Shown here in pieces: positions 27,347 through 32,835 of a stretch of DNA of 33,227 nt. The position numbers and the translations under genes are program-made. Source of the DNA: a bacterium (GTDB taxonomy: Bacteria > SZUA-79 > Acidulodesulfobacterales > Acidulodesulfobacteraceae). The notes beneath the pieces are model-generated. The model saw only the letters and a program-made list of their open reading frames with translations, did not search any database and was not told where the DNA came from. Numbering within the stretch: the stretch's first letter is position 1; each line of letters starts with the position of its first letter. The DNA lies in assembly GCA_021806885.1 (NCBI GenBank), contig JAKAPT010000012.1, positions 1 through 33,227 of the forward strand, given 5' to 3'.

Positions 27347-28345
27347 TCATATATAAATCTCAATCCTGTTCTTCCCGTTTTTCTTTGCCGCGTACATTGC
27401 CTGGTCCGCACGGTAGGTTATGGTTTGAGGTGTGTCGCCGGTTTTATACGTGGTTACCCCAAGGCTTATCGTTATTTTTTCTCCGATGGTAAAATCATGC
27501 CCCTCGGTTACTTTTCTCAACCTTTCCGCAAGCTCTAAAGCTTTTTGAGTATTCCCCTCCGGAATAATTATAATGAATTCCTCTCCTCCATATCTCGCGA
27601 AGAAGTCCTGAGCCCTGAGATTAGCCTCGATTACCCGGCTTATTTCCATAAGAATTGTATCCCCCGCCTGGTGCCCGTAGGTATCGTTAAAATACTTGAA
27701 ATCGTCTATATCGAAAAGGATGAGGGAAAAATCGGTTTGCGCGGATAAGGCTTTATTTATCATCGCGCTTAGCCGGAAATCGGAAGCCCTTCTGTTGTAA
27801 GCCCCCGTAAGGCTGTCTTTTTGAGATAAAAGCGCCATCTCATCCTTTTCCTTGATTATTTCCGACTCTCTCTTTACCTTATCTGTGATGTCCATAAATA
27901 TCCCGAGTCCAGCCCATTCGTTATTGTAAAATATCGTGTTGGTGGTCATTTTGACCCAGGAAAGGCTCCCGTCCTTCTTTCTGAAACGGTGCATCATGCT
28001 AGACTGGAAGATTTCCCCTCTCCCTCTTCTCTGGATTTGTTCCCCCAGCAATTTCAGGGTGTCTTTATCGGCATCGATAAAATCTAAAGGGCCCATTTTA
28101 ACGGCTTCCTCCATTGTATAGCCCGTGAAGGAGGCGGTGTAAGGGTTCGCGTACAGGATGCTTTTATCGTTATAAATGACGATGATGGCGGGGGAATTAT
28201 CTATAATGGCTTTGAGTATTTCGTTTTCTTTTTCAATCGCGTCCTTGAGTTTAGCCAGTTCGGTCGCGTCGGGTGAAACCTCAAGGCCGTTATCCATGTC
28301 CTTTTCTGCCGCTGGATACCGCATAGCGAGTTTTTCCTGTAACAT
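27347..28345 (-). CDS. PAS-GGDEF diguanylate cyclase
   Basis: The 332-aa protein has a short N-terminal helix, a PAS/PAC sensor (~45-160, with AIIVIYNDKSILYANP and the SLSWVKMTT segment) and a C-terminal GGDEF domain (~175-332). The active site reads GGEEF (253-257), a functional variant. An inhibitory I-site R244-A-Q-D247 lies exactly five residues upstream, so product inhibition by c-di-GMP is expected. It lacks membrane helices, so it is cytoplasmic and probably binds a small ligand or cofactor. No ribosome site precedes ATG 28345; an ATG seven codons later has AGGA nine bases upstream and may be used. c-di-GMP could control the nearby pilus and polysaccharide genes, but this is inference. 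Confidence 0.9.
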   Translation of the reverse strand: MLQEKLAMRYPAAEKDMDNGLEVSPDATELAKLKDAIEKENEILKAIIDNSPAIIVIYNDKSILYANPYTASFTGYTMEEAVKMGPLDFIDADKDTLKLLGEQIQRRGRGEIFQSSMMHRFRKKDGSLSWVKMTTNTIFYNNEWAGLGIFMDITDKVKRESEIIKEKDEMALLSQKDSLTGAYNRRASDFRLSAMINKALSAQTDFSLILFDIDDFKYFNDTYGHQAGDTILMEISRVIEANLRAQDFFARYGGEEFIIIIPEGNTQKALELAERLRKVTEGHDFTIGEKITISLGVTTYKTGDTPQTITYRADQAMYAAKKNGKNRIEIYI

Positions 28346-28631: not shown

Positions 28632-28654
28632 ATAAAGGGATAATACAAAAAGTG

Positions 28655-28688
28655 AAAAGGTGTCAGAATTTAAACTCTGACACCTTTT
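28655..28688 (-). terminator. Rho-independent terminator after the sulfur operon
   Basis: A perfect 13-bp stem (28655-28667 with 28676-28688, AAAAGGTGTCAGA) with an 8-base loop lies 20 bp past the DUF1641 stop and is followed on the minus strand by a T-rich tract. The A-run on the other arm would allow partial bidirectional action. Confidence 0.85.
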
Positions 28689-28707
28689 CTTCTTTTCCTT
28701 GATAAAT

Positions 28708-29565
28708 TTACTCCATTTTACCGAACTCGGAGCTTATAAACACGTCCTGGGATTTTCTCTTAAGGTTCTTGGTCAGGTTCTTCGCCAGAATCATCATGAA
28801 CTTAAGACCCGCCATAACCTCCTTGTCCTTGGCCAGGGAAAGCAGGGAAAGAATCCCGCCTTTATGGTATTTTTCATCCTCCGCCTCTTTCAGGGTATCA
28901 TGGCTTGATTCATCCATAACATTTATCAGCTCTTTAATATTTACCTGGGTAAGAAGCGCTTCTACCAGTTCCATGCCCGTTCCAACCGCCCTGTCTATAA
29001 GCCCGTCGGTAAACATTCTTCTTGCCGAAGCAACGCCGTTCGCAAACTCGGTCAGGTCGTTTAATGTTCCGCTGTTGATAAAAGCTTCACCGGTATCAAG
29101 AAGCGGTTTAACGTTGTATTGGAGAAGTAGTTCTGTCAGGTCCGCAAGCCTTTCGACGGTTCCCGCAAGGCGCTCGACCATCGTGTCGGTCATTCCCCTG
29201 CTGAATCCGGCGACAAAATCACCGGTGTCTTTAAGCGCCTGAAGCGTGCCTGACCTTTCAAGCTCGTCAATTTTTTCAATGCTGCCTTTAAGTCCTAAAG
29301 CCCTGTCGCCAGCCGCTTTCACCATTGAAAGCTGGTCGTGGCCGGAAAAACTATCCATGATGGACAGGCCTGTCATGACATTGTCGGCGACCCTTTCCGT
29401 CATCGAATCGGTTCCGCCATTTTTTAACGCCTGGACCATCGCCGTAACCTCGTCAAGCGTATCAAGCCTGCCGATAATATTAAGCAGGTGGTCCAAGGTC
29501 TGCGGCTTTTCCGAAATCTTTTGAAGCAGGGCAGCGGCAACGTCTATTTTCTCATTTTCAGCCAT
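28708..29565 (-). CDS. DUF1641-family protein
   Basis: The 285-aa, all-helical, soluble protein has repeated segments such as RLADLTELLLQYNVKPLLDTGE and FANGVASARRMF. It matches the DUF1641 family in character and context. DUF1641 genes often follow SQR-like flavoproteins in sulfur oxidisers, but the molecular role is unknown; a scaffold or membrane-tethering partner of SQR is plausible. It is the last of four genes in the sulfur operon, about 50 bp after sqr, and ends at a strong terminator. Confidence 0.72.
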   Translation of the reverse strand: MAENEKIDVAAALLQKISEKPQTLDHLLNIIGRLDTLDEVTAMVQALKNGGTDSMTERVADNVMTGLSIMDSFSGHDQLSMVKAAGDRALGLKGSIEKIDELERSGTLQALKDTGDFVAGFSRGMTDTMVERLAGTVERLADLTELLLQYNVKPLLDTGEAFINSGTLNDLTEFANGVASARRMFTDGLIDRAVGTGMELVEALLTQVNIKELINVMDESSHDTLKEAEDEKYHKGGILSLLSLAKDKEVMAGLKFMMILAKNLTKNLKRKSQDVFISSEFGKME

Positions 29566-29615: not shown

Positions 29616-30755
29616 TTAAAGAATACCCTTCGGTGTCAGCCAGTAAACCTTGTTATATGTCAATTTAAACCAGTGAATAAGCGCCGACGGCGTAACAGGG
29701 CTTGGCGGCGTCGTATAATTAAACATAATATAGGTAGCCGAAGACATACCGGTCTCGATGAAGCAGAAGACCTTTCCGTCATACCTGAACGGAGTAAGCC
29801 CTTCGCGCAATTCCGAGCAGATGTTTTCAACTATGATGTCGGATTCGAAATGGGCGGTTGAACCGGCCTTGCTGATAGGAAGGTTGGTCGTGTCTCCGAC
29901 GACGTAAACGTTATTGGAACCCTCCATCTTCAATGTAAATTTGTCCGTAGGAACAAACCCGTTCTGCCCGAGGCCGGAATCCTCGATAACTTGGGCGCCT
30001 TTATGCGGAGGAATCGTAATGAGGATGTCGTAATTAAGGGTTGAGCCTTCGAGGCTCGTGACGGTCTTTTTATTTACGTCTACCTCTTTCATGTTGAAAA
30101 GGGTCTCGGATTTAATGCCGTGTTTCGGAAAGGTTTTAGCCGCGAAGTGAGCGACCGGCTCAAGCCCGTGAAGCCTTCCGATAGGATAGGTATAGGTATA
30201 TTCGACCTTGTCCCTGACGCCCCTCTGTCTGAACCAGTCGTCAAGCATATAGGAGACCTCTAATGGAGCGACCGGGCACTTATGGGGCATGCCGATTGTA
30301 AGGACAATTTTTCCTCCTTTAAAGTTCATAAGCTCATGACGGAGCTTAAGGCACGCGTCATACTCATAAAACCAGTGTCCGCCTTCCTTAAGGCCCTTTA
30401 TCATTTCAGGGGCGGGACGGCATCCGGTGGCAAGCACGACGATATCATATTTTAATACCGCGCCGTTCTTTAGGTGAACTTCGTTTTTATCCTTGTCGAT
30501 CTTAACCGCGGGATGAAGATGAAGCTCCACCATCGGATCGAGAAGGTCTCTTTCATTCCTTACAAGTTCTTCATGCTGTTTTAATCCAAAAAGGACATAC
30601 AACAGACCGGGCTGGTAAAGGTGCTCTGGCTTATCGGAAACCACGTCGATGACAAGCTCGCCCTTTTTAAGTTCTTGCCTCATCTTTTTGGCGAGCAAAT
30701 TAGCGATAATTGTTCCTCCTACTCCGCCGCCGACTACAACGACTCTTTTTGACAT
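29616..30755 (-). CDS. sqr: Sulfide:quinone oxidoreductase (SQR)
   Basis: The 379-aa FAD enzyme of the membrane surface oxidises sulfide and passes electrons to quinone. It has an N-terminal dinucleotide motif VVGGGVGGT (7-15), VLATGCRP with Cys112, KCPVAPLEVSYML with Cys160, a second FAD motif NNVYVVGDTTNLP (281-293) and Cys331 in VFCFIETG. The three-cysteine pattern matches SQRs, where two form the trisulfide bridge. I start at ATG 30755, since GGAGGT is six bases upstream; the TTG at 30767 would overlap that site. It lies after dsrE and tusA, which should carry the sulfane sulfur produced. A related flavoprotein of the SQR/FCC family is the alternative. Confidence 0.88.
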   Translation of the reverse strand: MSKRVVVVGGGVGGTIIANLLAKKMRQELKKGELVIDVVSDKPEHLYQPGLLYVLFGLKQHEELVRNERDLLDPMVELHLHPAVKIDKDKNEVHLKNGAVLKYDIVVLATGCRPAPEMIKGLKEGGHWFYEYDACLKLRHELMNFKGGKIVLTIGMPHKCPVAPLEVSYMLDDWFRQRGVRDKVEYTYTYPIGRLHGLEPVAHFAAKTFPKHGIKSETLFNMKEVDVNKKTVTSLEGSTLNYDILITIPPHKGAQVIEDSGLGQNGFVPTDKFTLKMEGSNNVYVVGDTTNLPISKAGSTAHFESDIIVENICSELREGLTPFRYDGKVFCFIETGMSSATYIMFNYTTPPSPVTPSALIHWFKLTYNKVYWLTPKGIL

Positions 30756-30839
30756 AACAACCTCCAATGTTAAGTTAAAGTTAGGTTAAGATGATTTATA
30801 AATTCTATCCAAATTAACGGCGCTGACGAAATCTCTTTC

Positions 30840-31094
30840 TTACATGTCCTTTACTTTTTTGGAAAAAATTCTCCAGTAGCCCTGCTCCTCTATTACGCCC
30901 ATGAACTCCTGGTGAACCTTCGCGAGCCATTCAGGGACATCCTTCGCGCTGCCGGCGTCCCCGGAAATCAGTTCTACGATAGAACCGACGGGCTGCTGTC
31001 TCATCTCTTTAATAAGTTCCATTAACGGACCGGGGCAGTATGTTCCCCTTGCGTCCACTGTAACGGTTGGTTTAACGTCTTTTAAATCCGCCAT
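30840..31094 (-). CDS. tusA: TusA-like sulfurtransferase
   Basis: The 84-aa protein has the TusA signature DARGTYCPGPLMEL with the persulfide-carrying Cys20 in CPxP. TusA relays sulfane sulfur between proteins; in sulfur oxidisers it works with DsrE-type carriers. Its place between dsrE and sqr suggests it takes or delivers sulfur from sulfide oxidation. The C-terminal half is longer than the E. coli core but normal for this group. Confidence 0.88.
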   Translation of the reverse strand: MADLKDVKPTVTVDARGTYCPGPLMELIKEMRQQPVGSIVELISGDAGSAKDVPEWLAKVHQEFMGVIEEQGYWRIFSKKVKDM

Positions 31095-31134: not shown

Positions 31135-31533
31135 TCAGAATGTTATTGTTTCCGCCCCTTCCATAATACCAAGAAATGCCGCAAGCCCGAGATGGTCGTC
31201 AACGATGTCGAGAAGGTCTTCTTTTTTTATTCCAAGAATATCCATGACCATGGAACAAACGTATATTTTCAGTCCTCCAAGCATCTTGGCTTGGTCGAAC
31301 AGGTCGTAGAACATTGTTGCTTTTTTTTCTTTAATTGTTTGATACATTTTTCCGCCGGTAAAATTCTTTTTTGCGACGGTTTCCTTAAGGTAATTATAAA
31401 CTGCGTTCATGGTAACAAATATCGACACGTCCACGCCTGAAACGGCCGCGACCGATGCTATCATGGAGGCAACGTGAGATTTTTCGTATTCTTCGGACGC
31501 GATTATAATTGCCAGTTTTTGATTTTGAGACAT
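31135..31533 (-). CDS. DsrE-family sulfur carrier protein
   Basis: The 132-aa protein has a DsrE/DsrF-like fold (KLAIIIASEEYEKSHVASMIASVAA at the start). Its single cysteine, Cys93 in YVCSMVMDILGI, lies at the conserved position of DsrE2/DsrE3-like carriers. It is the first gene of dsrE-tusA-sqr-DUF1641, with GGAG upstream of the ATG. A sigma-54-type promoter lies about 137 bp upstream. The subgroup cannot be fixed without a tree. Confidence 0.85.
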   Translation of the reverse strand: MSQNQKLAIIIASEEYEKSHVASMIASVAAVSGVDVSIFVTMNAVYNYLKETVAKKNFTGGKMYQTIKEKKATMFYDLFDQAKMLGGLKIYVCSMVMDILGIKKEDLLDIVDDHLGLAAFLGIMEGAETITF

Positions 31534-31669
31534 AAATTTTCTCCTTTAGTTTTTATATTTTTTAATTTATTGATTTACCCCAAATTTATATATTTTACAA
31601 TATTTCGGGAGAAAAATAAATCTTTTTTAAACGCGTTAAATGAACTTTAATCACATTTATAAAGATTAA

Positions 31670-31685
31670 TGCAAAATGCGTGCCA
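31670..31685 (-). promoter_or_regulatory. Sigma-54 (RpoN) promoter of the sulfur operon
   Basis: On the minus strand TGGCACG-CATT-TTGCA matches the consensus TGGCACG-N4-TTGCW at every defined position, with GG and GC exactly ten bases apart. It points at dsrE, giving a leader of about 125 nt. No other match to this consensus was noticed in the window's intergenic regions. Confidence 0.72.
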
Positions 31686-31794
31686 AATTAAATTATGGCC
31701 TCATTAAATATCTCTTAAAGCTTTATAAAGCCTCCGTTTTTATAATTAGAGCCGATTATGCTACGCTATATTTCATTGATTTGATTTTATTAAA

Positions 31795-31870
31795 TGTCAT
31801 TTTGACAGGATTTTATGACAAATAAGCTTCGTTGTGTCATTTTGTCATAAAATTATTGCGACTATTGACA
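31795..31870. promoter_or_regulatory. Cluster of TGTCA/TGACA half-sites (candidate enhancer)
   Basis: Six TGTCA half-sites occur in 76 bp: 31795 (+), 31803 (-), 31816 (-), 31835 (+), 31843 (+) and 31866 (-). They form a perfect palindrome TGTCATTTTGACA (31795-31807). Its near-copy TGTCATTTTGTCA lies exactly 40 bp on (31835-31847). A 13-bp inverted repeat pairs 31810-31822 with 31841-31853. They lie ~110-185 bp upstream of the -24 element, the normal distance for a sigma-54 activator. The last half-site is also the -35 of tRNA-Val. Confidence 0.5.
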
Positions 31871-31893
31871 AATCAAGATGAGAGTTATAATAT
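31865..31893 (+). promoter_or_regulatory. Promoter of tRNA-Val(GAC)
   Basis: TTGACA (31865-31870) and, 17 bases on, TAATAT (31888-31893), about 21 bp before the tRNA. TATAAT at 31886-31891 with a 15-base spacer is an alternative -10. Confidence 0.55.
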
Positions 31894-31914: not shown

Positions 31915-31990
<76 letters not shown>

Positions 31991-32129: not shown

Positions 32130-32735
32130 ATGGCAAGCGTTTACAAGATTAAAGGTTCTGATAATTGGTATTATTTAATTAGTTAAATGGACGGCATTAT
32201 CAAGGTTCGACTAAAACCAAAGACAAAAAGTCTGCCCAGCTTATAGCAGAATCTATCCAAACGGATATCGCGCGCGAAAAACATGACTTGCCTTCTCTTT
32301 TACCTATTGCACCGGAGCCAGACAAACTATTCCGGGACGTTTGGACGGAATATTACAATAGTTTACAAAATACCTATAATGCTATAAAAGTAAAGAATTA
32401 TATCTATACAAAGCATTTATCGCCTTATTTTGACAAATTAACTATAGCAAAAATTGCTATAGTAGATCTTAAAAATTATCAACGTTTACGCCGCCTTGAG
32501 ATTTTAAATATGCCTAAAAATCGCAATAAAAGAGAATCCGAAATATCTTTTGCTTTTTTAAATAAAGAAATATTGATATTACATAACTTTTTTAATTTTT
32601 GTATAGAAAAAGGCTATATCGATAAAAACCCTGCCTCCGGTATTAAGAAACTCAACGAGCTTTCCCGCATTAAAACTTTATCGGACGAAGATATCTTGAA
32701 ATTAATTAACGGATCTTCTAATAAACTAAGTACCC
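32130..32735 (+). pseudogene. Broken tyrosine integrase
   Basis: The ATG at 32130 reads MASVYKIKGSDNWYYLIS and stops at 32186. The natural continuation (NGRHYQGSTKTKDKKSAQLIAES...) is in the +2 frame, so a one-base loss or equivalent near 32175-32186 breaks the gene. The shifted frame runs through a SAM-like core-binding domain (DLKNYQRLRR..., FFNFCIEKGYIDKNPASG) to RIKTLSDEDILKLI. It leaves homology at about 32711-32735, where antisense HigB-like sequence begins. The whole catalytic domain (R-H-R-Y) is missing. It is a relative of the integrase at position 30. A 9-3-9 palindrome of TTGCTATAG lies inside it at 32442-32462. Confidence 0.82.
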
Positions 32736-32835
32736 AGACAATCTTTTGCGTAACCTTGCCGTCCAAAGAATCTAAAAAATCTTTTATCGGACATTTTCCT
32801 TCAGGTGTTTTATAAAAAATTACCGTTCTGAACAT
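32711..32835 (-). pseudogene. Truncated HigB/Gp49-like toxin gene
   Basis: About 41 codons of a RelE-superfamily HigB (Gp49/DUF891-type) toxin: MFRTVIFYKTPEGKCPIKDFLDSL...KIVWVLSLLED. After LLED the frame runs into the integrase sequence in antisense, so the toxin's C-terminal half and the usual downstream antitoxin gene are gone. The ATG has no ribosome site, but a TTGACA-17-TAACAT promoter lies just upstream, so the transcript would be nearly leaderless. Such a fragment should be inactive. Confidence 0.72.

Follow-up and report, generated by a model that had tools for sequence, protein, structure and literature searches.

The dsrE-tusA-sqr-DUF1641 operon of this member of the Acidulodesulfobacteraceae is almost certainly preceded by a sigma-54 promoter equipped with activator sites, as predicted from the DNA, and the best overall explanation, which is considered probable, is that this promoter is controlled by a two-component system encoded on another contig (C33). 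In the proposed model, sulfide would give rise to sulfane sulfur (persulfide or polysulfide), to be sensed by the PAS domain of the C33 histidine kinase, which would phosphorylate the adjacent response regulator. The phosphorylated regulator would then bind paired TGNCA-N3-TGNCA palindromes and activate the sigma-54 promoter of the operon. The system would amount to the sulfur-responsive activator FisR split in two, with the sensor domain on the kinase and the ATPase/DNA-binding core on the response regulator. The window, that is, the whole stretch of 33,227 nucleotides that was analysed, corresponds to contig C14 in a draft genome of 1.38 Mb (G000), and its relevant features are the following:

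28654-28689, - strand: strong bidirectional intrinsic terminator, past the operon end
28708-29565, - strand: DUF1641-like gene (P0004), last gene of the operon, sub-threshold match
29616-30767, - strand: SQR-like flavoprotein, closest to the NCBIfam model for type III SQR, scoring under its cut-off
30840-31094, - strand: tusA
31135-31533, - strand: dsrE-like gene, first gene of the operon
31686-31670, - strand: sigma-54 -24/-12 promoter, TTGGCACG-CATT-TTGCA, predicted transcript start near 31659
31795-31807: putative promoter-proximal activator site, TGTCA-TTT-TGACA (TGTCATTTTGACA), from scans and a shuffle test
31816-31820: isolated TGACA half-site between both dsrE sites, role uncertain
31835-31847: putative promoter-distal activator site, TGTCA-TTT-TGTCA (TGTCATTTTGTCA, 12/13)
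31865-31893, + strand: sigma-70 promoter of tRNA-Val, TTGACA-17-TAATAT, whose -35 box (31865-31870) holds the sixth half-site
31915-31990, + strand: divergent tRNA-Val (GAC)

The gene order announced for the operon in a preliminary description of this DNA was recovered, but the DUF1641 label is only sub-threshold, P0004 scoring 15.6 bits against the Pfam model, for which the cut-off is 21 bits. Metatranscriptomes of Ca. Acidulodesulfobacterales have been reported to contain sqr and sirA-like genes among the prominent transcripts (PMC6776010). The operon end and tRNA-Val (CAC) are adjoined by a gene for a PAS-GGDEF protein (27347-28345), and directly behind tRNA-Val (GAC) lies a phage-type integrase remnant (32130-32815; weak Phage_int_SAM_3 match, early stop), probably representing a decayed island insertion.

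The full promoter match, TTGGCACGCATTTTGCA, conforms to YTGGCACGN4TTGCW, with the -24 GG at 31684-31683 and the -12 GC at 31672-31671, so that the exact RpoN consensus described earlier stands. It points at dsrE, whose ATG (31533) lies about 140 bp downstream, and is the single occurrence of TGGCACGN4TTGCW with zero mismatches in the window. Upstream of it, the expected six half-sites were counted (TGTCA at 31795, 31835 and 31843; TGACA at 31803, 31816 and 31866), at 111-186 bp from the -24 GG where about 110-185 bp had been given, and four of them compose two 13-bp sites, the perfect one and the 12/13 copy beginning exactly 40 bp apart as originally claimed. In the 382 bp separating dsrE from the tRNA gene, neither the two TGNCA-N3-TGNCA sites nor the -24/-12 element appeared in any of 5,000 dinucleotide shuffles (0/5,000 for each), and the six TGWCA half-sites compare with a shuffle mean of 0.36; neither the paired sites nor the promoter element are due to chance. 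Two details of the first account need adjustment. The motif TGTCA-N3-TGACA is one valid form, but relatives show the real element to be TGNCA-N3-TGNCA, and the alleged overlap of the cluster with the tRNA-Val promoter is confined to the half-site at 31866-31870, which is probably not an activator site because it lies inside the -35 TTGACA itself. The genome also holds the machinery that had been suggested as a check: the rpoN DNA-binding domain was recovered as two pieces, each at a contig end (C40 and C55), and six sigma-54 activators (enhancer-binding proteins, EBPs) are encoded.

Conservation upstream of orthologous operons, another proposed check, was assessed in 30 genomes of the family, acid-mine metagenome-assembled genomes that probably belong to Ca. 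Acidulodesulfobacterales, judging by sample names of acid-mine type and gene content; the relatives that carry a name are unclassified metagenome-assembled genomes. DsrE orthologues were found in 22 of them, G000 included, the upstream region could be read in 22/22, and both the site pair and the -24/-12 element are kept in 21, the exception being G002. The two sites are mostly 19-23 bp apart among relatives and 40 bp apart in G000, and in the 21 genomes the -24/-12 element lies downstream of the sites, 86-193 bp from their starts. These elements stay with dsrE in several relatives whose upstream neighbour differs from the tRNA. In G006 they precede a partial second dsrE copy (L248) and not the full-length one (L065); motif loss in G006 and G015 was considered and rejected, the pair and the sigma-54 element being present at L248 in the former and farther upstream (L062) in the latter. 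The sites of G027 and G019 were accepted with 7/8 positions matched in each site, and G019 may lack independence as a case, since the dsrE contigs of the two genomes are nearly identical. Over the 420 bp compared, their upstream regions (G019:C227 and G027:C48) show no difference, though the genomes are assigned to separate genera. G019 also carries another, distinct dsrE (C36), and a contaminating contig is possible.

The strict motif ATGMCA-N3-TGKCAT was found at 21 places in the 30 genomes versus 4 for the control, and 12 of the 21 are dsrE promoters. Others lie in front of a SatP-type gene in G022, of the gene for a secreted protein of the C21 type in G011 and, in G021, of that for a membrane protein weakly matching AmiS/UreI. 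The relaxed TGNCA-N3-TGNCA showed no excess over its reversed control in the whole genomes of relatives. In G000 it occurs at 14 places versus 3 for the reversed control, and the scan for pairs near other -24/-12 sites, also envisaged at the outset, did reveal them. Two exact sites with a rightly oriented element are present at four promoters (dsrE, degP, SatP and that on C21), and a fifth, on C28, has two imperfect sites, which leaves four such promoters besides dsrE:

C35:13529-13671: degP/htrA, sigma-54 element and two TTGTCAAAATGACAA sites
C73:5538-5669: SatP-type acetate transporter gene, paired sites and sigma-54 element (also in G022, C10)
C21:977-1140: secreted protein (YELGMHCVGFDMSYCCVIPPYNSIQAQ), paired sites and sigma-54 element (also in G011, C80)
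C28:1470-1629: 95-residue protein, imperfect sites, degP-like in their half-sites, and TGGCATATTTATTGCT

Unpaired matches to the relaxed motif (C4, C10, C25, C26, C31 and C80) have no sigma-54 element nearby, and those inspected sit in or at coding sequence. The SatP-type gene is an apparent member of the dsrE regulon. A Pfam match was sought for the conserved C21-type protein and none was obtained; the C28 protein likewise had no significant one.

The candidate activator encoded on C33 has an NtrC-type two-component layout, with a histidine kinase of 379 aa (PAS-HisKA-HATPase) and an adjacent REC-AAA+-HTH regulator. The kinase appears to be soluble, with no membrane segment detected (maximum 19-residue hydropathy 1.26), and the pair is unlinked to the operon, lying beside rho. 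The kinase is present in 27 of the 30 family genomes, and the cysteines of its PAS domain (C56-X10-C67-X6-C74) are invariant in 26 relatives. Among the dsrE-bearing genomes, G002 alone is devoid of C33, and its dsrE alone is without both elements; as this profile reflects one loss event in one genome, whose assembly is 95% complete, the co-loss is only suggestive of a link between C33 and the dsrE promoter. The AAA+/HTH core of the regulator groups with that of FisR in the tree (100/99), and the two remain sisters (100/97) when AtoC, ZraR, NtrC and AioR-like proteins are added. Their last helices are also comparable, FisR having SERTLYRRL where a C33 relative has SERNLYRKL. Other candidates were discarded, namely the PspF-like EBP of C70, which among the matches listed is found only in G000 and G016, and that of C17, which is not in G004 and would not serve as a universal activator. 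An acs gene following the C33 regulator was rejected as the sign of an acetate sensor, this arrangement being found in this genome alone. At the C33 loci of several relatives (L214, L195, L217 and L251), the gene after the regulator resembles a membrane receptor.

A tblastn search with the C33 PAS domain matched an EBP of Cupriavidus metallidurans that is predicted to be FisR because of its gene neighbourhood: it is transcribed divergently from genes resembling those for persulfide dioxygenase and SQR, and a TauE-like gene lies behind it. Its cysteines are at exactly 53, 64 and 71, in CYRVSHGYDVPCDQAGEHC, where the C33 kinase has CYRVSHLRDEPCDPLLESC, the motif shared by both being CYRVSH....PCD.....C (C-X10-C-X6-C); we take C71 to be the third cysteine of FisR. 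The gap between fisR and the persulfide dioxygenase gene (pdo) of this bacterium contains TGCCA-ACT-TGGCA and further TGGCA copies (shuffle P 0.009), and that between fisR and tauE contains TGCCA-TCA-TGGCA (shuffle P 0.004), from which TGCCA-N3-TGGCA is inferred to be the predicted recognition site of FisR. Sulfane sulfur has been reported to link C53 and C64 of FisR in a tetrasulfide (PMC8614764). The C33 system and the Cupriavidus FisR have in common a cysteine PAS domain, a related AAA+/HTH core, a sigma-54 promoter, an SQR gene among the likely targets and TGNCA-N3-TGNCA sites, which for FisR lie beside its own genes. They differ in that FisR carries sensor and core on one polypeptide, whereas the C33 regulator has a receiver domain and the PAS is on the kinase; in that fisR adjoins pdo/sqr, while the C33 genes are unlinked; and in that the dsrE-tusA-sqr operon has no persulfide dioxygenase. 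The C33 system would therefore be FisR-like in its working, but with its sensor and activator on separate proteins it does not count as FisR. Rhodobacter xanthinilyticus pEJ01 (L301, 4185-7435) encodes a C-X10-C-X6-C PAS kinase whose neighbours are a sigma-54 regulator and a molybdopterin oxidoreductase, and is apparently another two-component user of this domain. In Pseudoalteromonas plasmid records (L300 and L302), FisR-like PAS activators are divergent from cytochrome bd oxidase genes, with TGNCA-like repeats of other spacing between them; the repeats at these fisR loci (GACATTTTTGTCA and TGTCATAAGTGGCA) are similar but were not counted as support.

Other known regulators of sulfur oxidation show more limited resemblance. 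TspS/TspR and TcsS/TcsR of Acidithiobacillus (targets sox and tetH; PMC6335251, PMC12194929) also belong to an acidophile, combine a kinase with a sigma-54 regulator and act from a palindromic upstream site on a sulfur-oxidation target. However, TspS has an extracellular sCache_3_2 sensor, with thiosulfate as proposed signal, while the PAS kinase of C33 has no hydrophobic segment, and the reported site is TGTCCCAAATGGGACA, the system lying beside its target (sox) whereas C33 adjoins rho. NreBC of Bacillus licheniformis resembles the C33 system in having a PAS histidine kinase in control of sqr-pdo, but sigma-54 has no part in its description, its PAS falls in a clade apart and the reported signal is sulfide (PMC9918477).

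The promoter of degP (TTGGCATAATAATTGCT) bears on the identity of the activator. Its tandem sites, 39 bp apart, follow a sister motif, TTGTCA-N3-TGACAA, and the pair is found in G000 and 7 of the 9 relatives examined, which points to degP as a putative sigma-54-controlled periplasmic protease. C33 was rejected as its regulator because in G002, where C33 kinase and regulator are absent, degP still has its site pair and sigma-54 element. For the same reason a second sigma-54 activator probably exists, and degP is probably served by the EBP of C20 (NtrC-like), C55 (NtrX-like) or C3. One of these three might also act at dsrE, in response to an envelope or general stress signal. They are present in all genomes surveyed, and in G000 the dsrE sites share with degP the TGTCAAAATGACA core and the spacing. 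With their 40-bp spacing and mixed TGACA/TGTCA half-sites, these dsrE sites are less typical than those of relatives (ATGMCA, 19-23 bp); their half-sites partly look degP-type, and such an intermediate character makes cross-talk between both activators possible in this genome, which is the main weakness of the C33 assignment. Across the family, however, the half-sites differ, being ATGACA or ATGCCA in 47 of 80 cases at dsrE and TTGTCA in 30 of 32 at degP. In addition, G002 lost the dsrE sites along with C33 and retained those of degP, and none of the C20, C55 and C3 cores groups with FisR in the tree, so that an EBP other than C33 appears unlikely at dsrE. Far more improbable still is that an unrelated repressor or activator working with sigma-70 uses the TGNCA palindromes as operators and that the -24/-12 match is incidental. 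Palindromes by themselves do not reveal a protein family, but in 21 of the 22 genomes, and at several unrelated genes besides, the paired sites accompany a -24/-12 element at a distance of about 86-193 bp and with a single orientation, and a search for a sigma-70-like site upstream of dsrE on the - strand found none.

The C33 regulator is accordingly regarded as the likely activator at dsrE, and the question moves to what its kinase perceives. Cysteine-bearing PAS domains may serve other signals, and the C33 PAS could sense oxygen, redox state, a metal or a heme ligand, with sulfide oxidation as one output. This is conceivable, if doubtful, given that genes with no obvious tie to sulfur, for a SatP-type transporter and a secreted protein, appear to belong to the regulon. 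Moreover, the FisR of A. baumannii responds to sulfide without these cysteines (PMC7315123), which means that they are no universal criterion. Against such signals, the PAS motif is nearly identical in its letters to that of FisR, and the SQR operon is the best-conserved target. Sulfane sulfur is therefore somewhat favoured as the signal of the C33 kinase. The dedicated sulfide or sulfur sensor foreseen in the preliminary description is thus supported by the FisR-type cysteine PAS, the FisR-related core and the co-loss in G002, the genome encoding a kinase and sigma-54 regulator of this kind whose action at dsrE would follow by inference. The more complete picture, in which a sulfane-sulfur-sensing C33 system governs sulfide oxidation and a small dispersed regulon (SatP-type transporter, secreted protein) throughout this family of uncultured acidophiles, beside a sister-motif sigma-54 activator for degP, is given only slightly more credence than doubt.

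As it stands, the finding supplies a candidate regulator, a candidate site (TGNCA-N3-TGNCA) and a candidate signal for sulfide oxidation in uncultured acid-mine bacteria. It also predicts a DNA motif for FisR itself, and suggests that a persulfide-sensing domain may have been exchanged between the kinase of a two-component system and an activator made of one protein.
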